NCBI RefSeq assembly: GCF_010729665.1
Contig: NZ_AP022610.1
Span: forward strand, 5,146,001 to 5,210,000
Origin: Mycolicibacterium madagascariense
GTDB lineage: Bacteria > Actinomycetota > Actinomycetes > Mycobacteriales > Mycobacteriaceae
Direction of reading: 5' to 3'
Length of the DNA stretch: 64,000 bases
Made by a program: the position numbers and the translations under genes. Shown piece after piece: positions 8,985 through 22,625 of this stretch (position 1 is the stretch's first letter; the number at the start of each line of letters is the position of its first letter). A model generated the notes under the pieces. The model saw nothing but the letters and a program-made list of their open reading frames with translations, ran no database searches and was not told the origin of the DNA.

Positions 8985-10175
8985 CTAGGTCCTCACCAGT
9001 CCGGCCAGATGCGCGCCGATGGGCAGGGCGGCGGTCGCCGCGGGCGACGGTGAGTTGAGCACGTGCACCATCCTGGCGGTGCGTTCGATGACGAAGTCGT
9101 GCACCAGCGTGCCGTCCCTGCGCACGGCCTGGGCCCGGATGCCCGCCTCATACGGCAGCAGATCGGACGTCGTCAAAGCCGGTGCGTACTTGCGGCATTC
9201 GCGCAAGTAGCGGCGCTTGAAGAGCGAGTTGCCGATCTCGGTGACGCCGAGCCGGACGTTGGCCCTGGCCACCCGCCACAACCCGGGAAAGGCCGCCATT
9301 CTCGCCACGTCCCGCGGGTCGACGGAGAACTTCGGATAACCCTCGCGGGCCAGCCCGAGCACGGCACTCGGTCCCACGGTGATGCGGCCGTCGATGGTGG
9401 GGCTCAGGTGCACCCCGAGGAACGGCAACTCGGGATCGGGTACCGGATAGATCAGTCTGCGCACGAAACCCGAACGCGTGGAGGGTAATTGAAAGTACTC
9501 ACCGCGGAAGGGGACGATCTGCACGTCGATGGGGACACCGGCCATCTCGGCCAGCCGGTCGGCCTGCAGACCACCGCACACCACCAGCCGGTCGCAACTC
9601 ACCGTCGCCGATGACGTCGAAACTCGCACTCCCGCACTGTCTTCGACGATCCCCACCACCCGCTGACCGGTGCGCACCGCACCCCCGGCCGCGACGATCA
9701 GGTCGGCGAGGCGACGGGCCACCTGCCGGTAGTCGACGATGCCGGTGCGCGGCAGATGCAGCGCGCCCAGGCCCGTCACGTTCGGCTCGAACTCGATCAG
9801 TTCGGCGCGGCTCAGCCGTCGGCACTCGATGCCGTTGACCGCGGCGCGCTCCCGTAGCGCGGTCATGCGGTCCAGTTCGGCGGGCGTCGTCGCGACGATC
9901 AGTTTGCCGCACTCGTCGAAGGCGATGCCGTGCTGCGCGCAGAACTCCTTGGTCGCACGCTCCCCCGCCCGGCAGAACCTCGCCTTGAGGCTGCCCGGCT
10001 CGTAGTAGATGCCGGAGTGGATGACGCCGCTGTTGTGGCCGGTCTGGTGCGCGGCCGGCGACGTGGCCCCCTCCAGCACGACGACGGACGCGTCCGGTTC
10101 GGCAAGCAGCAGGTGGTGTGCCGTCGACAGGCCGACGATGCCTGCCCCGATGACGCAGTACCGGAAGCGTTCCAT
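8985..10175 (-). CDS. lhgO: L-2-hydroxyglutarate oxidase (FAD-dependent)
   Basis: Oxidises L-2-hydroxyglutarate to 2-oxoglutarate with FAD, passing electrons to oxygen or quinone; a metabolite-repair role. 396 residues. The N-terminal dinucleotide fold shows GAGIVGLSTAHHL near residue 10, then HQTGHNSGVIHSGIYY and PGSLKARFCRAG, which are diagnostic of the LhgO group within the DAO superfamily. The middle PFRGEYFQL and the C-terminal LNSPSPAATAALPIG also fit. The ATG is preceded 8 nt upstream by TACAGT (minus strand), a likely -10 box. Divergent from the hydroxyacid dehydrogenase; convergent with alc, 9 nt apart. Confidence 0.9.
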   Translation of the reverse strand: MERFRYCVIGAGIVGLSTAHHLLLAEPDASVVVLEGATSPAAHQTGHNSGVIHSGIYYEPGSLKARFCRAGERATKEFCAQHGIAFDECGKLIVATTPAELDRMTALRERAAVNGIECRRLSRAELIEFEPNVTGLGALHLPRTGIVDYRQVARRLADLIVAAGGAVRTGQRVVGIVEDSAGVRVSTSSATVSCDRLVVCGGLQADRLAEMAGVPIDVQIVPFRGEYFQLPSTRSGFVRRLIYPVPDPELPFLGVHLSPTIDGRITVGPSAVLGLAREGYPKFSVDPRDVARMAAFPGLWRVARANVRLGVTEIGNSLFKRRYLRECRKYAPALTTSDLLPYEAGIRAQAVRRDGTLVHDFVIERTARMVHVLNSPSPAATAALPIGAHLAGLVRT

Positions 10176-10216
10176 TGCCTCGCACTGTACAAACCCGTCG
10201 TAGCGTGGACGACATC
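10176..10216. promoter_or_regulatory. Divergent promoters of lhgO and the hydroxyacid dehydrogenase
   Basis: The 41-bp spacer holds a minus-strand TACAGT (10184-10189), 8 nt before the lhgO ATG, and a plus-strand TAGCGT (10201-10206), 10 nt before the dehydrogenase ATG. With normal 17-bp spacing, each -35 region would fall at or inside the other gene's start, so the two promoters overlap. The boxes match the mycobacterial TANNNT consensus; transcription starts are inferred. Confidence 0.5.
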
Positions 10217-11191
10217 ATGAGCACTCCACCCCGCAGTCGCACCGTCCTTCGAGTCGGACCGCTCAAGGACTCGCTGGAACGCACCCTCGCCGAGGACTAC
10301 GGCGCCTACGTCCTGCCCTCCGAGCCCGCCGAGCGCGAGGCGTTCCTGGCGTCGCACGGCGCCGAGATCACCGCGGCCGTCACGTCGGGACGCACCGGGG
10401 TCGACGCCGCCCTGCTGTCCGCGCTGCCGAATCTCGGGGCGATCGTGAACTTCGGGGTGGGCTACGACACCACCGACGTCGACGCCGCCGCGGCGAGGGG
10501 GGTCGGCGTCAGCAACACCCCCGACGTGTTGACCGACTGCGTGGCCGACACCGCGGTGGGACTGCTGATCGACGTGATGCGCGGATTCTCGGCCGCCGAC
10601 CGCTACGTCCGCGCCGGGCGCTGGGTCACCGACGGCGACTATCCACTAACCCACCGGGTGAGCGGCAGGCGTGTCGGCATCATCGGGCTCGGCCGCATCG
10701 GATCGGCGATTGCCAAGCGGCTCAACGCCTTTGGCTGCGTCATCTCCTACCACAACCGCCACCGCAAGCCCGACGCGCCGTATGAGTACGCCGAGTCGCC
10801 CGTCGAGCTGGCCCGCGGCGTCGACGTCCTGGTGATCGCGGCCGCCGGCGGCAGCGGCACCGAGCACCTGGTCGACGCCGACGTCATCGCCGCACTCGGC
10901 CCGTCGGGCTACCTCGTCAACATCGCCCGCGGCAGCGTCGTCGACCAGGCCGCGCTGATCGACGCCCTGTCCGACGGCAGACTGGCCGGGGCCGGGCTCG
11001 ACGTGTTCGCCGACGAGCCCCACGTGCCCGCCGAATTGATCGCGATGGACCACGTGGTGCTGCTACCGCACGTGGGGAGCGCCACGGTCGAGACGCGGGC
11101 GGCCATGGAGGAGCTGACGCTGCGCAACCTCGACGAATTCCTCGCCACGGGACGCCTGGTGACGCCCGTCGTGCCGCCCGGCTCGCCGTGA
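10217..11191 (+). CDS. D-isomer-specific 2-hydroxyacid dehydrogenase
   Basis: NAD(P)H-dependent oxidoreductase, 324 residues, probably acting on a 2-oxoacid such as glyoxylate or hydroxypyruvate. The substrate domain contains NFGVGYDTTDVDAAAARGV; the Rossmann domain starts with GIIGLGRIGSAIAKRL near residue 155. Catalytic residues are Arg in VNIARGSVVD, Glu in DVFADEPHVP and His in LLPHVGSAT. The short N-terminal domain and GRIGSAIA loop resemble GhrB/hydroxypyruvate reductases rather than SerA, which carries a C-terminal regulatory domain missing here. Its place near allantoicase makes a glyoxylate reductase role attractive, but that is inference. Confidence 0.85.
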   Translation: MSTPPRSRTVLRVGPLKDSLERTLAEDYGAYVLPSEPAEREAFLASHGAEITAAVTSGRTGVDAALLSALPNLGAIVNFGVGYDTTDVDAAAARGVGVSNTPDVLTDCVADTAVGLLIDVMRGFSAADRYVRAGRWVTDGDYPLTHRVSGRRVGIIGLGRIGSAIAKRLNAFGCVISYHNRHRKPDAPYEYAESPVELARGVDVLVIAAAGGSGTEHLVDADVIAALGPSGYLVNIARGSVVDQAALIDALSDGRLAGAGLDVFADEPHVPAELIAMDHVVLLPHVGSATVETRAAMEELTLRNLDEFLATGRLVTPVVPPGSP

Positions 11192-11722: not shown

Positions 11723-14700
11723 GTGACGACGGACCCACGCCCGGACATTCCCGCGCAGTACCTGTCGTCGCCGTCCGCGCCACCAGCGCGCACGCTGATC
11801 GACGTCCTGCAGGCCACCGCTGCGCGCTACCCCGACGCCCCCGCCCTCGACGACGGCGAGGTGCAGCTGACCTACGCCGAGCTGATCGCCGACATCGACG
11901 AGAGCGTGGCGTGGCTGGCCGCCCGCGGCATCGGCCGCGGCGACCGCATCGGCATCCGGATGCCGTCGGGCAGCTACGCCCTCTACGTCGCGATCCTGGC
12001 GGCGCTCGCCGTCGGCGCGGCCTACGTCCCGGTGGACGCCGACGACCCGCAGGAGCGCGCCGACCTGGTGTTCGGCGAGGCCCAGGTCGTGGCGATCATC
12101 ACCGAGCTCGGGCTCGTCCGCGGGCCCGGTTCGTCGCGCGGCTGGCGCGCGGGGCCGCCGATGATCCGCGACGACGCGTGGATCATCTTCACCTCGGGGT
12201 CCACCGGCACGCCGAAGGGCGTGGCGGTGACCCATCGCAACGCGGCCGCCTTCGTCGACGCCGAGGCTCAGATCTTCTTGCAGGACAACCCGATTGGGCC
12301 CGGCGACCGAGTCCTCGCCGGGCTGTCGGTGGCGTTCGACGCGTCGTGTGAGGAGATGTGGCTGGCATGGCGCCACGGCGCCTGCCTGGTGCCCGCTCCG
12401 CGCTCGCTGGTGCGCAGCGGCATGGATCTGGGCCCGTGGCTGGTGTCGCGCGACATCACGGTGGTCTCGACGGTGCCGACGCTCGCGGCGCTGTGGCCCG
12501 CCGAGGCGCTCGAAGCGGTGCGGCTCTTGATCTTTGGCGGAGAGGCCTGCCCGCCCGAGCTCGCCGAGCGACTCGCCGTCGAGGGTCGCGAAGTCTGGAA
12601 CACCTACGGACCCACCGAGGCCACCGTCGTGGCGTGCCTGGCCCGGCTGCGCGGGGGGCCGGTCAGCATCGGCCTGCCGCTGCCCGGGTGGGACCTCGCC
12701 GTGGTCGACAAGGAGGGCCACCCGGTGCCGGTGGGCGACGTCGGCGAGCTGGTGATCGGCGGCGTCGGGCTGGCCCGCTACCTCGACGCGGACAAGGACG
12801 CCGAGAAGTACGCGCCGATGCCGACCTTGGGCTGGTCGCGGGCCTACCGCAGCGGCGACCTCGTCCGGCTGGAGCGCGACGGGCTGTACTTCCAGGGCCG
12901 CGCCGACGATCAGGTGAAGGTCGGCGGCAGGCGCATCGAGCTCGGCGAGGTCGACTCGGCGCTCGTCCACCTGCCCGGCGTCAGCGGCGGCGCGGCGGCC
13001 GTGCGCCGGACCGCCAGCGGCACCCCCCTGCTGGTCGGATACGTCGCGAGCGCCGACCCCGACTTCGACCTCGCCGCGGCCCGCAAGCATCTCGCCGAGT
13101 CCCTGCCCGCCGCGCTGGTGCCGCGGTTGGTGCTGCTCGACGAGCTGCCGACGCGGACGTCGGGCAAGGTCGACCGCGACGCGCTGCCATGGCCCCTGCC
13201 GGACTCCGCCACCGAGGACGGTCCCGAGCTGGGCGGCACCACGGGGTGGCTGGCCGGTCTCTGGCGCGACGTCCTCGCCACCCCGGTCGGTGGGCCCGAG
13301 GAGGACTTCTTCGCCCTTGGCGGCGGTTCGCTGTCGGCGGCGCAGCTGGTGGCCGCGCTGCGGACCCGCTACCCCGAGGTGACGGTCGCCGACCTGTACG
13401 ACCATCCCCGCCTCGGCTCGCTGGCCGGCTACCTCGACGAGCTCGACCCACCACCGGCCGTCGAGCCCAGGACCGTCGCCCCGGTGTCCCGGTTGACCGG
13501 GCTGGCGCAAACCCTCGCGTCCGTCCCGTTGGCCACGCTGGCGGGCATGCAGTGGGTGGTCTGGCTGGCGCTGCTGAACTACCTGGCGGCGGGGATCGTG
13601 CCGTGGGCCGTCCCGGTGAACGGATGGCTGCTGCTCGCCGGGTTCGTCCTGTTCGTCTCCCCGCTGGGCCGCATGGCCATCGCGGTGTTCGGCGCCCGCA
13701 TCCTCGTCGGCAATCTCCAGCCGGGCACGTACCGGCGTGGCGGAGGCGTGCACCTGCGGGTGTGGCTCGCCGAGCGCCTCGGGGAGGCCAGCGGGGCCGA
13801 AAACCTCGCTGGCGCACCATGGTTGGTCTACTACGCCCGCGCGCTGGGCAACCGCGTCGGCAAGGGCGTGGATCTGCACTCGGCACCGCCCGTGACGGGC
13901 ATGCTGACGCTGGGACACCGCTGCTCGATCGAACCGGAGGTCGACCTCACCGGGCACTGGATCGACGGCGACCTCTTCCACGTCGGTGAGATCACCGTCG
14001 GCAACGACGCCACCATCGGCGCGCGGACCACGCTGCTGCCCGGCTCCTCGGTCGGCAAGAACGCCGACGTCGCGCCGGGCTCGGGTGTGGTGGGCAAGGT
14101 CAAGGCGGGCCAGTACTGGAAGGGCTCGCCCGCCGTGAAGTCCGGCAAGGCCAGGCACCCGTGGCCCGACGAGCGGCCGGCCCGCGCCTCGGTCTGGGTG
14201 GCGATGTACGGCCTGACGTCCATCGCGCTCGGAGCGGTGCCGCTGGTCGCCCTCGGCGCCGGGCTCGCCGTCCTCGGGCTGGCGGTCCGCGGCACCGCCA
14301 CGCTGGGCGGTGCGGTCGGGCCGGCGCTCGCCTGGACGCCGGTCGCGACCCTCGTCGCCGCGGTCGTCTACGCGGTGCTGACGGTCTTGGGGGTGCGCGC
14401 GCTGTCACTGGGACTGCGCGAGGGCTACCACCCGGTCCGCAGCCGGGTGGGCTGGCAGCTGTGGGCGACCGAACGGCTCATGGACGCCGCCCGCAACTAT
14501 CTGTTCCCGATCTACGCCAGCCTGCTGACCCCGGCCTGGCTGCGGCTGCTGGGGGCGCGGGTCGGTGCGGGCACCGAGATCTCGACGGCGTTGCTGACGC
14601 CCAAGTTCACCGTCGTCGAGGACGGCGCGTTCCTCGCCGACGACACCATGGTCGCGTCCTACGAGCTGGGTGGCGGCTGGATCCACGTCGCCACCGCGAC

Positions 14701-15622
14701 CGTCGGCAAGCGGGCGTTCCTCGGCAACTCGGGGATCACCCAGCCGGGCCGGCGCGTCCCCGACGACGGTCTCGTCGCGGTGCTCAGCGCCACGCCGCAC
14801 AAGGCCAAGGCGGGCTCGTCGTGGCTGGGCAGTCCGCCGATCCGGCTGCGCAGGCAACCGACTGCGGCCGACGCGCTGCGCACGTTCCATCCGTCGCGCC
14901 AGCTGAAGGTCAAGCGCGGTCTCGTCGAGACGTGCCGACTGCTGCCGCTCATCATCACGTTCGCGATCGGGGTCGGCGTGCTGGCGAGCTTGGAGGCGCT
15001 GGCACGCGAACTCGGCTGGCTGGGCGCGTCGCTGCTCGGCGGCCTGGTGCTGTTGGCCGCCGGCGCGGTCGCGGGCACGGTCGCCGTCATCGCGAAGTGG
15101 CTATGGGTGGGGCGCATCCGCGCGGTGGAGCATCCGCTGTGGTCGTCGTTCGTCTGGCGCAACGAGGTGTCGGACACCTTCGTGGAAACCGTTGCGGCCC
15201 CGTGGTTTGCGCGCGCCGCGAGCGGAACCCCGGTGATGAACCTGTGGCTGCGGGCGCTCGGCGCGAGGATCGGACGCGGCGTCTGGTGCGAGACCTACTG
15301 GCTACCCGAGGCCGACCTCGTCACCGTGGGCGCGGGTGCGACGGTGAGCCGCGGCTGCGTCGTGCAGACCCACCTGTTCCACGACCGCATCATGCGGCTG
15401 GACACCGTGACGATCGACGAGGGCGCGACGCTCGGGCCGCACTGCGTGGCGCTGCCCGCCGCCCGCATCGGGGCGGGCGCGACCGTCGGGCCCGCGTCGC
15501 TGGTCATGCGCGGCGACGAGGTGCCCGCATCGTCGCGCTGGCAGGGCAACCCCATCGCACCGTGGGGACCCAAGCGCAAGAAGCGGGCCGGCTCGAACGC
15601 GAAGAACAAGAGCGCTGCGTGA
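11723..15622 (+). CDS. Pls/PosA-type NRPS-like amino-acid ligase with membrane acetyltransferase-like domains
   Basis: 1299-residue single-module membrane protein. The adenylation domain (about residues 20-490) has FTSGSTGTPKG near 155, NTYGPTEATV near 293, YRSGDLV near 375, KVGGRRIELGE near 395 and TSGKVDRDALP near 475. A carrier domain follows, with the phosphopantetheine Ser in DFFALGGGSLS near 536. There is no canonical condensation or thioesterase domain. Instead, six or so hydrophobic segments alternate with three hexapeptide-repeat (left-handed beta-helix) regions near 700-800, 945-1030 and 1165-1270. This is the layout of epsilon-poly-L-lysine synthetase (Pls) and relatives that polymerise an amino acid or join it to a nucleophile. 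A-domain FDASCEE has Glu where the binding-pocket residue 239 falls, compatible with a cationic substrate (inference). GTG 11723 follows TAGTTT (11711-11716) by 6 nt: probably leaderless. Overlaps the M1 peptidase by 4 nt. Confidence 0.88.
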   Translation: MTTDPRPDIPAQYLSSPSAPPARTLIDVLQATAARYPDAPALDDGEVQLTYAELIADIDESVAWLAARGIGRGDRIGIRMPSGSYALYVAILAALAVGAAYVPVDADDPQERADLVFGEAQVVAIITELGLVRGPGSSRGWRAGPPMIRDDAWIIFTSGSTGTPKGVAVTHRNAAAFVDAEAQIFLQDNPIGPGDRVLAGLSVAFDASCEEMWLAWRHGACLVPAPRSLVRSGMDLGPWLVSRDITVVSTVPTLAALWPAEALEAVRLLIFGGEACPPELAERLAVEGREVWNTYGPTEATVVACLARLRGGPVSIGLPLPGWDLAVVDKEGHPVPVGDVGELVIGGVGLARYLDADKDAEKYAPMPTLGWSRAYRSGDLVRLERDGLYFQGRADDQVKVGGRRIELGEVDSALVHLPGVSGGAAAVRRTASGTPLLVGYVASADPDFDLAAARKHLAESLPAALVPRLVLLDELPTRTSGKVDRDALPWPLPDSATEDGPELGGTTGWLAGLWRDVLATPVGGPEEDFFALGGGSLSAAQLVAALRTRYPEVTVADLYDHPRLGSLAGYLDELDPPPAVEPRTVAPVSRLTGLAQTLASVPLATLAGMQWVVWLALLNYLAAGIVPWAVPVNGWLLLAGFVLFVSPLGRMAIAVFGARILVGNLQPGTYRRGGGVHLRVWLAERLGEASGAENLAGAPWLVYYARALGNRVGKGVDLHSAPPVTGMLTLGHRCSIEPEVDLTGHWIDGDLFHVGEITVGNDATIGARTTLLPGSSVGKNADVAPGSGVVGKVKAGQYWKGSPAVKSGKARHPWPDERPARASVWVAMYGLTSIALGAVPLVALGAGLAVLGLAVRGTATLGGAVGPALAWTPVATLVAAVVYAVLTVLGVRALSLGLREGYHPVRSRVGWQLWATERLMDAARNYLFPIYASLLTPAWLRLLGARVGAGTEISTALLTPKFTVVEDGAFLADDTMVASYELGGGWIHVATATVGKRAFLGNSGITQPGRRVPDDGLVAVLSATPHKAKAGSSWLGSPPIRLRRQPTAADALRTFHPSRQLKVKRGLVETCRLLPLIITFAIGVGVLASLEALARELGWLGASLLGGLVLLAAGAVAGTVAVIAKWLWVGRIRAVEHPLWSSFVWRNEVSDTFVETVAAPWFARAASGTPVMNLWLRALGARIGRGVWCETYWLPEADLVTVGAGATVSRGCVVQTHLFHDRIMRLDTVTIDEGATLGPHCVALPAARIGAGATVGPASLVMRGDEVPASSRWQGNPIAPWGPKRKKRAGSNAKNKSAA

Positions 15623-16935
15623 GCCGGGATTCGAAGCGACCGGTCATCGACCCCTACCTCCCCGGCAACGGCAACTTCGGCTACCGGGTGTCGCGCTACG
15701 AACTCGACCTCGAGTACAAGGTGAACATCAACCGGCTGGCGGGGACCGCGACCATCACCGCGGTGACGCTGGCGTCGCTCTCGACGTTCAGCCTCGACCT
15801 GTCCGACGCGCTCGCGGTGTCCAAGGTGTCGGTCAACGGCCGCAGGCCCGCCCACTTCGCCCGCAGCAAGGGCAAACTCGACGTCACGCTGTCCGCGGCG
15901 CTGCCTGCCGGGGCGGCGCTGACGATCACCGTGCGCTACGCGGGCACCCCGAGGCCCATCCGGTCGCTGTGGGGTGACGTCGGCTTCGAGGAGCTCACCA
16001 GCGGCGCCCTCGTCGCGGGCCAGCCCAACGGCGCCGCCTCGTGGTTTCCGTGCGACGACCATCCCAGCAGCAAGGCGAGCTACCGCATCGCGATCGCCAC
16101 CGAGAACCCCTACTACGCGCTGGCCAACGGCGAGCTGGTGTCGCGCCGCACCAGGGCCGCGATGACGACGTGGACCTACGAGCAGCCCGAGCCCACGTCG
16201 ACCTACCTCGTCACGCTGCAGATCGGCGAATACCAGCAACACCGGTTGACGAAGTCGCCGGTCGTCATGAATGCCGTTCTGCCCCAACGACTCCGGCAGA
16301 ACTTCGATCACGACTTCGGGCGCCAGCCGCAGATGATGAAGCTGTTCGTCAAACTGTTCGGGCCCTACCCGCTGTCGAACGGGTACACCGTCGTGGTGAC
16401 CGACGACGATCTCGAGATTCCCCTTGAGGCCCAAGGCATTTCGATCTTCGGAGCGAACCACTGCGGCGGCAACCGCAGCGCCGAACGACTGATCGCGCAC
16501 GAACTCGCGCACCAGTGGTTCGGCAACTCGGTCACCGTGCGGCGCTGGCGCGACATCTGGCTGCACGAGGGGTTCGCCTGCTACGCCGAATGGCTGTGGT
16601 CGGAGGACTCCGGCGGCCGCACCGCCGACGAGTTGGCCAAGCACTACCACCAGCGGCTGAGGCACTCGTCGCAGCACCTGCTGCTGGCCGACCCGGGGCC
16701 GCGCGACATGTTCGACGACCGGGTCTACAAGCGCGGCGCGCTCACCCTGCACGCGCTGCGCCGCACCATCGGCGACGACCGGTTCTTCGACCTGCTGCGG
16801 GACTGGACCGCGCGGCACCGGCACGCGACGGCCGTCACCGACGACTTCACCGGGCTGGCCGCCAACTACGCCGAGGAGTCCCTGCGGCCGCTGTGGCGGG
16901 CCTGGCTGTACTCGACGGACGTCCCCCACCCGTGA
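15619..16935 (+). CDS. M1-family metallopeptidase, short form
   Basis: 438-residue zinc aminopeptidase-family protein lacking the usual large C-terminal helical domain. N-terminal beta-saddle: GYRVSRYELDLEYKVN and the ISSWFPCDDHP-like SWFPCDDHPSSKASY. Zinc site: HELAHQWFGN with His 294 and His 298, and Glu 317 in LHEGFACYAEW (HExxH-x18-E). The exopeptidase GxMEN loop is replaced by PLEAQGISIFG, so aminopeptidase specificity is not assured. Catalytic Tyr may be in DRVYKRGALTLHALR. No signal peptide, so cytoplasmic. The GTG overlaps the TGA of the Pls-like gene (GTGA), so the two are translated together; the peptidase may trim, recycle or detoxify the synthetase product (inference). Confidence 0.88.
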   Translation: MSRDSKRPVIDPYLPGNGNFGYRVSRYELDLEYKVNINRLAGTATITAVTLASLSTFSLDLSDALAVSKVSVNGRRPAHFARSKGKLDVTLSAALPAGAALTITVRYAGTPRPIRSLWGDVGFEELTSGALVAGQPNGAASWFPCDDHPSSKASYRIAIATENPYYALANGELVSRRTRAAMTTWTYEQPEPTSTYLVTLQIGEYQQHRLTKSPVVMNAVLPQRLRQNFDHDFGRQPQMMKLFVKLFGPYPLSNGYTVVVTDDDLEIPLEAQGISIFGANHCGGNRSAERLIAHELAHQWFGNSVTVRRWRDIWLHEGFACYAEWLWSEDSGGRTADELAKHYHQRLRHSSQHLLLADPGPRDMFDDRVYKRGALTLHALRRTIGDDRFFDLLRDWTARHRHATAVTDDFTGLAANYAEESLRPLWRAWLYSTDVPHP

Positions 16936-18182
16936 CCGACGCGTCGACCGTCCCCAGTCAGGGACCGGTCACCCGGGGCAGCGTCGTGCGGGTCGGCGCG
17001 GCCACCGTGGTCAGCGCGCTGTGCGGCTACGCGGTGCTCTACCTGGCCGCCCGCGATCTCGCGCCGGCGGGCTTCTCGGTGTTCGCCGTGTTCTGGGGCG
17101 CCTTCGGGCTGCTGGCCGGGGCATCGAACGGGCTGCTGCAGGAGTCGACGCGCGAGGTCAGGCAGGCACTGCGCGCCCCGACGGCCGACGGCCCGCGCAT
17201 CCACCCGATGTGGGTGGCAGCGCTGGTCGGCGTGCTCGCCGCGGTGGCCGTCACGGCGAGCGCTCCGCTGTGGTCGGGGCACGTCTTTGCCGACGCCCGG
17301 TGGCTCAGCGTCGGCCTGCTCAGCGCGGGCATCGCCGGGTTCTGCATGCACGCCACGCTGCTCGGCGTGCTGGCCGGGGCGAACGGGTGGAGCCAGTACG
17401 GGGCGCTCATCATGGGCGACGCGATCGGCCGGGTGTCCGTCGCGCTGGCCACGTTCCTCGTCGGCTGGCAGCTCGTCGGATACCTGTGGGCGACCGTGGC
17501 GGGGTCCATCGCCTGGCTCGTCGTCCTGCTGGCGTCCCCCACCGCGCGAGCCGCGGTCGCGCTGGCGACGCCGGGCACCATGGTGACGTTCCTGCGCGGA
17601 GCCTCGCACTCCATCGCGGCGGCGGGCGCCAGCGCGATCCTCGTCATGGGCTTCCCGGTGCTCCTCAAGGCCACCTCGGCCGATCTCGGCGCGACGGGCG
17701 GGGTGGTGATCCTCGCGGTGACGCTGACGCGGGCGCCGCTGCTGGTGCCCCTGACCGCGATGCAGGGCAACCTCATCGCCCACTTCGTCGACCAACGCGA
17801 GCGACGGCTGCGATCGCTGATCGCCCCGGTCGCGGCGCTGGCCGTACTCGGTGCGGCGGCCGTGCTCGTCGCGGGACTCGCGGGGCCGTGGTTGCTGCGC
17901 ACCGCGTTCGGACCCGAGTACCAGGCCGGTGGCGCGCTGCTGGCCTGGTTCACGTTCGCCGCGGTGGCGATCGCGCTGCTGACGCTGACCGGTGCCGCCG
18001 CCGTCGCCGCGGCCCGACACCGCGCGTACGCGGCGGGCTGGGTCATCGCGACGGCGGCGTCGGTGTTGCTGCTTCTGCTGCCGCTACCCCTGGAGACCAG
18101 GACCGTGGTGGCGCTGCTGTGCGGCCCGCTCGTCGGAATCGCCGTCCACGTGGTGGCGCTGGCCCGGGCGCCCGGGGCGTGA
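16932..18182 (+). CDS. Polytopic membrane protein, polysaccharide flippase-like (Rv3630 type)
   Basis: 416 residues, almost entirely hydrophobic, with about 12 predicted membrane helices (for example [64 protein letters not shown]). The pattern fits MOP-superfamily exporters of lipid-linked sugars (Wzx/MurJ relatives), but no residue-level signature proves transport. GTG 16932 overlaps the M1 peptidase stop by 4 nt. It sits just before a polyprenyl-phosphate sugar synthase, its activator and an epimerase, so moving a polyprenyl-phosphate sugar across the plasma membrane is a reasonable guess. In M. tuberculosis the equivalent gene also precedes Rv3631. Confidence 0.8.
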   Translation: MTDASTVPSQGPVTRGSVVRVGAATVVSALCGYAVLYLAARDLAPAGFSVFAVFWGAFGLLAGASNGLLQESTREVRQALRAPTADGPRIHPMWVAALVGVLAAVAVTASAPLWSGHVFADARWLSVGLLSAGIAGFCMHATLLGVLAGANGWSQYGALIMGDAIGRVSVALATFLVGWQLVGYLWATVAGSIAWLVVLLASPTARAAVALATPGTMVTFLRGASHSIAAAGASAILVMGFPVLLKATSADLGATGGVVILAVTLTRAPLLVPLTAMQGNLIAHFVDQRERRLRSLIAPVAALAVLGAAAVLVAGLAGPWLLRTAFGPEYQAGGALLAWFTFAAVAIALLTLTGAAAVAAARHRAYAAGWVIATAASVLLLLLPLPLETRTVVALLCGPLVGIAVHVVALARAPGA

Positions 18183-18205
18183 CCGGGTATCTTGTCGGCA
18201 TCGAC

Positions 18206-18901
18206 ATGGGAACCCGCTCCGAGGATGCGTGGATCGTCATCCCCGCCTTCAACGAGGCGACCGTCATCTCCGACGTCGTCGCCGACGTCACGTCCGTGTT
18301 CGCCAACGTCGTCGTCGTCGACGACGGCAGCCGCGACGACACCGCCGACCGCGCGTGGCGCGCCGGCGCCCACGTCGTCCGCCACCCCGTCAATCTGGGC
18401 CAGGGCGCCGCGATCCAGACCGGCGTCGAGTACGCCCGCAGCCGCCCCGGCGCCGCGGTATTCGCGACGTTCGACGCCGACGGGCAGCACCGGGTGCAGG
18501 ACGTCGTCCGAATGATCAAGCGACTGGTGACCGAGGACCTCGACATCGTGGTGGGCACCCGGTTCGCCGAAAGTGCGCCGGTGGGCATGCCCGTCCTGCG
18601 GCGGCTGCTGTTCCCGCTGATCGCCAAGCTCAGCCCCGCCAGTCGCCGACTCGGTCTGACCGACGCGCACAACGGCCTGCGCGTCTTCAACCGCACCGTC
18701 GCCGACGGCCTCAACCTCACGATGAACGGCATGGCCCACGCGAGCGAGATCGTCGCCGAGATCGTCGAACACGGGTGGCGTGTCGCCGAGGAACCCGTCG
18801 AGATCCTCTACACCGACTACTCGATGTCGAAGGGTCAACCGTTGGTCAACGGCGTCAACATCGTCTTCGACGGGTTGCTGCGAAAGAGGATGCGCCGATG
18901 A
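18206..18901 (+). CDS. ppgS: Polyprenyl-phosphate N-acetylgalactosaminyl synthase (PpgS/Rv3631 type), GT2 family
   Basis: 231-residue GT-A glycosyltransferase of the dolichol-phosphate-mannose-synthase type. Motifs: WIVIPAFNEA at the start, VVVVDDGSRDDTAD, NLGQGAAIQTG and the DxD-type FATFDADGQH near residue 95. The M. tuberculosis homologue Rv3631 was reported to transfer GalNAc from UDP-GalNAc to polyprenyl phosphate, supplying the galactosamine substituent of arabinogalactan. ATG 18206 (MGTRSEDAWIV) matches the MGTQTEDVWIV start I recall for that protein; GTG 18179 would add 9 residues. The stop overlaps the DUF2304 gene (ATGA). No membrane helix, so it probably depends on the partner for membrane contact. 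Confidence 0.87.
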   Translation: MGTRSEDAWIVIPAFNEATVISDVVADVTSVFANVVVVDDGSRDDTADRAWRAGAHVVRHPVNLGQGAAIQTGVEYARSRPGAAVFATFDADGQHRVQDVVRMIKRLVTEDLDIVVGTRFAESAPVGMPVLRRLLFPLIAKLSPASRRLGLTDAHNGLRVFNRTVADGLNLTMNGMAHASEIVAEIVEHGWRVAEEPVEILYTDYSMSKGQPLVNGVNIVFDGLLRKRMRR

Positions 18902-19245: not shown

Positions 19246-22018
<2,773 letters not shown>

Positions 22019-22027
22019 GCTCGGGCC

Positions 22028-22399
22028 ATGACGAACTTGCGCGACGAAGGCCTGCGGGTCTTTCGAGAAATGCTTCCCGGCGTGCTCCCCGACGGGGACG
22101 TCGACTTCGGCGCCGACGGCTTCGCCCCCGAACTGCTGGACATCGGGGTCGAGAGCGTGTTCGGCAAGCTGTGGACGCGCGACGGGCTGAGCAGGCGCGA
22201 GCGCAGCCTGGTCACCCTCGGCATCCTCATCGCCCTGCGCGCCACCGACGAGCTGAGCGCCCACTTCCGGATCGCCCGCACCAACGGTCTGACCGACGAC
22301 GAACTCGCCGAGGTGATCTACCACGCCAGCGGTTACGCCGGGTTCCCCGCCGCGGCCACCGCCAAGAACGTGGCGACGAAGGCGCTCGCGCAGGAGTGA
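22028..22399 (+). CDS. Carboxymuconolactone decarboxylase (CMD) family protein
   Basis: 123 residues, one CMD fold. Core: LWTRDGLSRRERSLVTLGILIALRATDELSAHFRIARTNGLTDDELAEVIYHASGYAGFPAA is characteristic (outlined by its key parts RRERSLVTLG, E in DELSAH and H in HASGYAG). No CxxC pair, so the AhpD-like peroxidase activity is unlikely; a 4-carboxymuconolactone decarboxylase-like role is not proved. ATG 22028 lies 6 nt after the hexamer TAGGCT (22016-22021), whose TAG is the stop codon of the upstream gene, so a leaderless transcript starts inside the intergenic junction. Confidence 0.88.
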   Translation: MTNLRDEGLRVFREMLPGVLPDGDVDFGADGFAPELLDIGVESVFGKLWTRDGLSRRERSLVTLGILIALRATDELSAHFRIARTNGLTDDELAEVIYHASGYAGFPAAATAKNVATKALAQE

Positions 22400-22446
22400 G
22401 GCGGGGTCGCAGGCTTGGGGTCTTCGGTATGGTCCGAGCCGAAAGG

Positions 22447-22478
22447 CGTCATCATCTGTTGACGTCATCATTCGTTGA
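22447..22478. repeat. Tandem duplication of a 16-bp unit
   Basis: Two adjacent 16-bp copies, CGTCATCATCTGTTGA and CGTCATCATTCGTTGA, differ at two neighbouring positions and are followed by CG. Each ends in GTTGA(CG), so the stretch contains two GTTGACG words 16 bp apart. It lies between the CMD gene and tRNA-Thr. It could be a binding site for a dimeric regulator or a chance duplication. Confidence 0.6.
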
Positions 22479-22552
22479 CGGCCACCAAAGCGGTATGCCT
22501 GCCAGACAGGCGGGACACCGGGGCGAACGCAGGAGACCGCAGACCTCCGTGG

Positions 22553-22625
22553 GGCCGCCTCCGGGAATCGAACCCGGGACCTTCTCATTACGAGTGAGAC
22601 GCTCTACCGACTGAGCTAAGGCGGC
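22553..22625 (-). tRNA. tRNA-Thr (anticodon CGU)
   Basis: The minus strand folds into a full cloverleaf. The acceptor stem GCCGCCT pairs with AGGCGGC, the D arm is GCTC/GAGC, the anticodon stem TCTCA/TGAGA holds the loop CTCGTAA with anticodon CGT, and the T arm CCGGG-TTCGATT-CCCGG is canonical. It reads ACG threonine codons. CCA is not encoded. 73 nt including the discriminator base. Confidence 0.95.

Follow-up and report, generated by a model that had tools for sequence, protein, structure and literature searches.

A probable pls-pldII-type operon in Mycolicibacterium madagascariense and its distribution among related bacteria

The two-gene unit described here lies in a 64,000-nucleotide stretch of the Mycolicibacterium madagascariense genome (contig NZ_AP022610.1, positions 5,146,001 to 5,210,000), referred to below as the window and numbered from its first letter. 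It consists of pls, encoding an epsilon-poly-L-lysine synthetase-like protein (Pls) of 1299 residues with a GTG start (11723..15622, forward strand), followed on the same strand by a gene for a PldII-like two-domain M1 metallopeptidase of 438 residues in which no leader peptide was seen (15619..16935). We consider it quite probable that this unit is an operon of the pls-pldII type, in which Pls makes epsilon-poly-L-lysine and the leaderless M1 cuts it in the cytosol. The pair is of a kind already known from Streptomyces albulus and Corynebacterium variabile, and a new type of synthetase-peptidase pair was ruled out by the description of the same operon in these two species.

The two genes overlap by four nucleotides (GTGA, 15619..15622): the pls stop codon TGA occupies 15620-15622, and the M1 start codon GTG (15619-15621) spans it. 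The positions of this stop and start bear out the overlap reported in a preliminary description of this DNA, and both open reading frames lie where it had placed them. M1 is probably translationally coupled to the overlapping pls. A 924-residue open reading frame at 14161-16935 is the M1 frame left open upstream in GC-rich DNA.

Domain layout and substrate pocket of the synthetase

Profile analysis placed the protein in the Pls/PosA family, with the NCBIfam model TIGR02353 covering residues 595-1278 at 752.8 bits (cut-off 423.1) and delimiting a C-terminal polymerising region (13505..15556). The Pfam scan revealed AMP-binding, PP-binding, and one hexapeptide match, and it found neither a condensation nor a thioesterase domain, as the preliminary description had stated. 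The nearest PDB sequence to the adenylation (A) domain (approximately residues 20-494; 11780..13204) was the epsilon-poly-L-lysine synthase of S. albulus (7wew), with an E value of 1.5e-189 and 65% identity. The A-domain core motifs and the carrier serine were both found; the carrier domain (13247..13435, PF00550) contains the motif LGGGSL, whose serine we take to be the phosphopantetheine serine.

An AlphaFold model of residues 575-1299 (predicted local distance difference test score [pLDDT] 85.6, predicted template modelling score 0.87) showed three beta-helix-like repeat stretches with helices between them. Hydropathy analysis revealed three membrane-like stretches, each with room for two helices; an extra stretch within the A domain (residues 82-107) was taken to be false. 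Along the chain, membrane-like stretch 1 (residues 612-658; 13556..13696) precedes hexapeptide-repeat domain C1 (approximately residues 711-809; 13853..14149), stretch 2 (residues 824-899; 14192..14419) precedes domain C2 (approximately residues 946-1039; 14558..14839), and stretch 3 (residues 1066-1129; 14918..15109) precedes domain C3 (approximately residues 1182-1280; 15266..15562). Comparison of the C-terminal model with the PDB gave local matches to hexapeptide acetyltransferases, C1 among the matched parts, with a best E value of 1.2e-5 and template modelling (TM) scores of up to 0.57 normalised by target and at most 0.17 normalised by model. Taken from the model, the local fold matches, and hydropathy, the region has the family feature of three tandem acetyltransferase-like domains among six membrane helices, a layout described for Pls in PMC8117764. 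Both the assignment to Pls/PosA and the three hexapeptide-repeat regions between membrane helices, proposed in the preliminary description, were therefore confirmed, the former by the C-terminal profile match.

The ten pocket residues, read off conserved motifs, were D206, A207, E210, S249, I270, G272, T294, V302, V303, and K482 (DAESIGTVVK), and the motif FDASCEE occupies residues 205-211 (12335..12355). The pocket of 7wew consists of the same ten residues, and this code was found in 120 of the 121 aligned Pls sequences (window included), the remaining one reading DAESVGTVVK. Because the pocket equals that of S. albulus Pls and is constant across nearly all of these sequences, L-lysine is the likely substrate as far as sequence can tell, which supports the cationic substrate read earlier from FDASCEE. 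Pocket positions 1 (Asp) and 3 (Glu) have been described as conserved in the Pls/PosA family, lysine going with Ala at position 2 (PMC10522769).

The M1 peptidase and the known pls operons

Pfam analysis of the peptidase identified an N-terminal and a catalytic M1 domain, and its model (pLDDT 95.0) has the same fold as the two-domain M1 of Deinococcus radiodurans (6a8z, 6ifg), with TM scores of 0.87-0.89 normalised by the model and 28-30% identity over the fold alignment. The alignment located the zinc motif HELAH (residues 294-298; 16498..16512), Glu317 (16567-16569), and Tyr370 (16726-16728); from the roles known in the M1 family, we take Glu317 to be the third zinc ligand and Tyr370 to be catalytic. 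The features of the two-domain M1 class, namely an HExxH-E zinc site, a catalytic Tyr, and an N-terminal plus a catalytic domain only, were thus all found. The GxMEN loop is degenerate, as in the Deinococcus enzyme: its place reads IPLEAQ in the window (PLEAQG at 16420..16437, with Glu270 kept), and across 81 M1 sequences Met is replaced by Leu, Val, or Ile and Asn by Ala or Ser. HELAH, Glu317, Tyr370, and Glu270 were conserved in 81/81 sequences (window included), and Gln135 was constant in 36/36 aligned sequences. Because the catalytic residues and the loop Glu stand throughout, the altered loop reads in these alignments as a feature common to all the enzymes compared, with no sign of decay, and a defective M1 was ruled out by the same conservation. 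The preliminary description, which held that the loop had been lost, was right that it is altered but overstated the change, since Glu270 is kept in every sequence.

In S. albulus, pls and pldII are neighbours in a single operon and overlap by 4 bp (PMC4361855). The window resembles it: a peptidase gene overlaps the end of a Pls/PosA synthetase gene, and the lysine pocket is the same. PldII of S. albulus has been reported as located outside the membrane and as pivotal for self-protection (PMC9223678). C. variabile also has a pls-peptidase operon, and its Pls made epsilon-poly-L-lysine in S. coelicolor (PMC8117764). The earlier suggestion of a trimming or self-protection peptidase is supported by these systems, but such a partner was already described in them. 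Production of epsilon-poly-L-lysine is thus proved in two lineages that share this pocket, those of S. albulus and C. variabile, and poly-lysine synthesis has been predicted from such a gene in Nocardia (PMC4035055). A literature search, with limited reach into subscription journals, found no report of a product or of the pls-M1 pair in mycobacteria, in agreement with the preliminary description, whose author knew of no described product.

The locus taken as C. variabile (L127) was recognised because it contains, apart from the forward ATG, those segments of the two published cloning primers that match the gene; an exact primer search of 401 genomes of the family gave no match and is uninformative on presence, since the pattern including the primer ATG is absent from L127 itself. 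The operon at this locus has the layout of the window, with an M1 without leader, and its Pls and M1 are 58% and 44% identical to those of the window; its M1 gene starts 10 nt after pls (with the start chosen here), without overlap.

In a further search, 392 genomes of a genus taken as Streptomyces (G304, seven of whose loci are 79-92% DNA-identical to named Streptomyces loci) were searched with 7wew; 166 matched, seven of them twice. Eleven loci with A domains 72-93% identical to 7wew were taken as S. albulus type, and their ten complete Pls sequences formed a single clade with support 1.0. With three Streptomyces Pls sequences that belong to the other type, the window Pls shared 60-61% identity; compared with the S. 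albulus-type locus L113 (A domain 93% identical to 7wew), it showed 53% identity, and the window M1 showed 43% identity over nearly its full length. A twin-arginine-like leader was present in 10/10 M1 genes beside S. albulus-type Pls (L157, for example: MTRCSRRALIRGAALLPLAAT), whereas none was found in 87 other M1 loci (C. variabile included) at any in-frame start within 80 codons, and no leader peptide was found in the window M1. L118, whose start is doubtful, was omitted from the first leader count and is included in the recount, which allowed any in-frame start; L117 (S. albulus type, A domain 74%) yielded neither a complete frame nor an M1 match and was kept out of both the tree and the leader count. 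Three pairs of loci from two-copy Streptomyces genomes (L115/L116, L117/L118, and L119/L120) each held one Pls copy of each type, with an M1 gene beside five of the six copies (none found by L117) and with M1 types that differed in leader.

Because it has no leader peptide, the window M1 probably works in the cytosol, and it does not show the leader that goes with an external PldII. We call it PldII-like, not PldII, because of this missing leader and because the comparison is one of sequences; none of the 120 relatives listed by name, out of 7803, is called PldII.

In the mechanism proposed for the unit, the A domain would activate L-lysine with ATP and load the carrier domain, and the three membrane-anchored C-terminal domains would link lysines into epsilon-poly-L-lysine through bonds between alpha-carboxyl and epsilon-amino groups; Pls itself may export the product. 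M1 would hydrolyse the isopeptide bonds of this polymer, its targets in the cytosol most likely being chains or oligomers retained there or taken back, for self-protection and lysine recovery. Because in epsilon-poly-lysine the alpha-amine next to the scissile carbonyl stays free in each residue, an aminopeptidase site with an amine-binding Glu could cut the polymer at its end and perhaps within the chain.

Distribution of the pair and competing readings

Among 148 sampled genomes of the window's genus, Pls was found above the cut-off in 105 and an M1 match (E 1e-20 or better) in 108, and M1 lay directly downstream on the same strand for 105 of 106 Pls copies. All 105 genomes with a counted Pls have an adjacent M1, so the co-occurrence across mycobacteria that the preliminary description had looked to was observed. 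Eight M1 rows fall outside the 106-copy count: four distant paralogues of 31% identity, a contig-end fragment in G008, two from G114, and one from G088. M1 occurred without a counted Pls in three genomes: in G125 a short contig carries it next to a fragment of Pls, in G114 both genes survive as decayed remnants, and in G088 the match is a short piece of M1. The G114 remnants of pls and M1 adjoin each other (G114:C1:203063-204707) in a genome of 3.3 Mb. The one Pls copy without a downstream M1 is the second copy of a mycobacterial genome (L162, G030:C82); it is 73% identical to the window Pls, with no M1 match in the 10 kb covered.

In named genomes, a Pls match was found upstream on the same strand in 80/80 M1 loci; these are the best 80 of 588 M1 relatives, and the count therefore holds for the closest ones and not for all M1. 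The pairs of this set occur in Mycobacterium, Nocardia, Rhodococcus, Gordonia, Kribbella, Streptomyces, Microbacterium, and others. A start codon at a 4-nt overlap was possible in 44 of 77 judged loci and at a 1-nt overlap in four more, with L044, L045, and L084 outside this count. The mirror-tree correlation between Pls and M1 was 0.89 (Pearson, 94 pairs), which in part reflects shared descent. Three loci showed peculiarities: approximately 830 nt separate pls and M1 in Gordonia soli (L044); in Streptomyces sp. CB01881 (L084) the Pls match is in pieces with a broken frame and the M1 frame is open; and a record titled Bifidobacterium breve (L029) contains a pls-M1 pair 78-79% identical to that of the window and is probably a mislabelled metagenome bin.

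Co-occurrence without linkage was observed in a genus (G824) that we call Corynebacterium from its place in the family and from the C. variabile primers in one member. Pls was found in 184 of its 242 genomes. Of 121 genomes, the 109 listed for M1 were counted (88 with a close M1 and 21 without, G1257 with its 28% match being scored as lacking M1): 87 had both Pls and M1, one had M1 only, three had Pls only, and 18 had neither (Fisher p = 1.5e-16, a value that ignores kinship). Of the 87 pairs, 47 with both genes on one contig were compared, and in 44 of these the distance between the genes exceeded 10 kb; an M1 match lay within the flank of approximately 1.5 kb in four of the 30 best Corynebacterium Pls loci (L127, L132, L134, and L143). 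Because the genes go together here without being adjacent, these counts point to a shared function of Pls and M1, and they form a stronger argument than adjacency does.

Several points weigh against the interpretation as a pls-pldII-type operon with a polymer-cutting M1. The PDB matches of the Pls C-terminal model are local, and none of those listed spans the whole arrangement; what is typical of S. albulus PldII was judged not from PldII itself but from genomes chosen by a Pls A domain with 72-93% identity to 7wew. Three of the 21 Corynebacterium genomes scored without M1 still have Pls, and the mycobacterial copy L162 stands without an adjacent M1; because of these three genomes and this one copy, M1 is not strictly needed for Pls. 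In published work, inactivation of both Pld and PldII in S. albulus is reported to have changed neither yield nor chain length (PMC8506220), C. variabile cultures gave no detectable epsilon-poly-L-lysine, and C. glutamicum carrying the C. variabile gene made no detectable epsilon-poly-L-lysine although the protein was expressed (both PMC8117764).

Among the alternatives, it is unlikely that M1 sets the chain length of the product by trimming instead of protecting the cell. Repression of pldII led to longer chains, with degrees of polymerisation above 40 (PMC9223678), as trimming would predict; the double inactivation left the degree of polymerisation unchanged, however, and exported chains would not be met by a cytosolic enzyme. 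The two-domain fold and canonical catalytic residues would also suit an ordinary cytosolic aminopeptidase that sits in the operon by chance and is unrelated to the polymer, but we regard this as distinctly improbable: M1 tracks Pls even where the genes are unlinked, as in the 109 Corynebacterium genomes, and within the window's genus 43 genomes gave no counted Pls, 40 of which also gave no M1 match at E 1e-20.

The synthetase might instead make another cationic polymer (of beta-lysine, ornithine, diaminobutyrate, or diaminopropionate) or a new one, since Pls/PosA relatives with such products have the same layout (PMC10522769, PMC8117764). PosA, the delta-poly-L-ornithine synthetase of Acinetobacter baumannii, shares the family and domain order of the window Pls. 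Its gene is described as a single-gene operon, with no obvious cotranscribed neighbours, and its pocket (DMEHNGTVSK) differs from that of the window, as does that of the epsilon-poly-beta-lysine synthetase (DGESISVVNK; PMC10522769). As the window pocket is identical to that of the lysine enzyme and the diaminobutyrate and diaminopropionate synthetases sit in a different gene context (PMC8117764), a different product appears very unlikely. We accordingly prefer a pls-pldII-type operon that would make epsilon-poly-L-lysine and cut it in the cytosol.

Neighbouring genes and biological meaning

Just upstream of pls lie lhgO (8985-10175; L-2-hydroxyglutarate oxidase, 566 bits to NF008726) and a D-2-hydroxyacid dehydrogenase gene (10175-11191). 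Although lhgO belongs to lysine and glutarate breakdown, its position and that of the dehydrogenase gene are probably due to chance, because near the 80 named pairs (several of these loci being incomplete) lhgO was found in 0/80 cases and the dehydrogenase gene in 1/80 (34% identity). Downstream, residues 402-625 of a 626-residue open reading frame (17021-18901) match the polyprenyl-phospho-N-acetylgalactosaminyl synthase PpgS, and its approximately 400 N-terminal residues matched no NCBIfam or Pfam model. The genes ppgS, galE, and that at 21080-22588 each recurred near eight of the 80 pairs, all at mycobacterial loci except one in Gordonia (ppgS), a restriction that fits shared descent. The rare recurrence of the window's neighbours beside the named pairs ruled out a larger conserved cluster. 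Also rejected was the idea that Pls-less species arose by losing the pair from the ppgS locus: ppgS was present in 11 of 12 genomes, but the decayed pair of G114 lies approximately 74 kb away.

Should the pair function as its relatives do, approximately seven of every ten genomes sampled from the genus (105/148) carry an epsilon-poly-lysine pathway. The leaderless M1 raises a testable question, namely why cutting takes place outside the membrane in one branch of these systems and apparently within the cell in the other. On a wider and doubtful proposal, epsilon-poly-lysine is produced by the majority of mycobacterial species and degraded within the cell by a leaderless M1 isopeptidase; it would then act chiefly as a polycation of the cell interior or the envelope, subject to turnover, and not as an exported antibiotic as in S. 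albulus. If this were true, such a polycation would have roles in stress, in acid or anionic envelope buffering, or as a lysine store.

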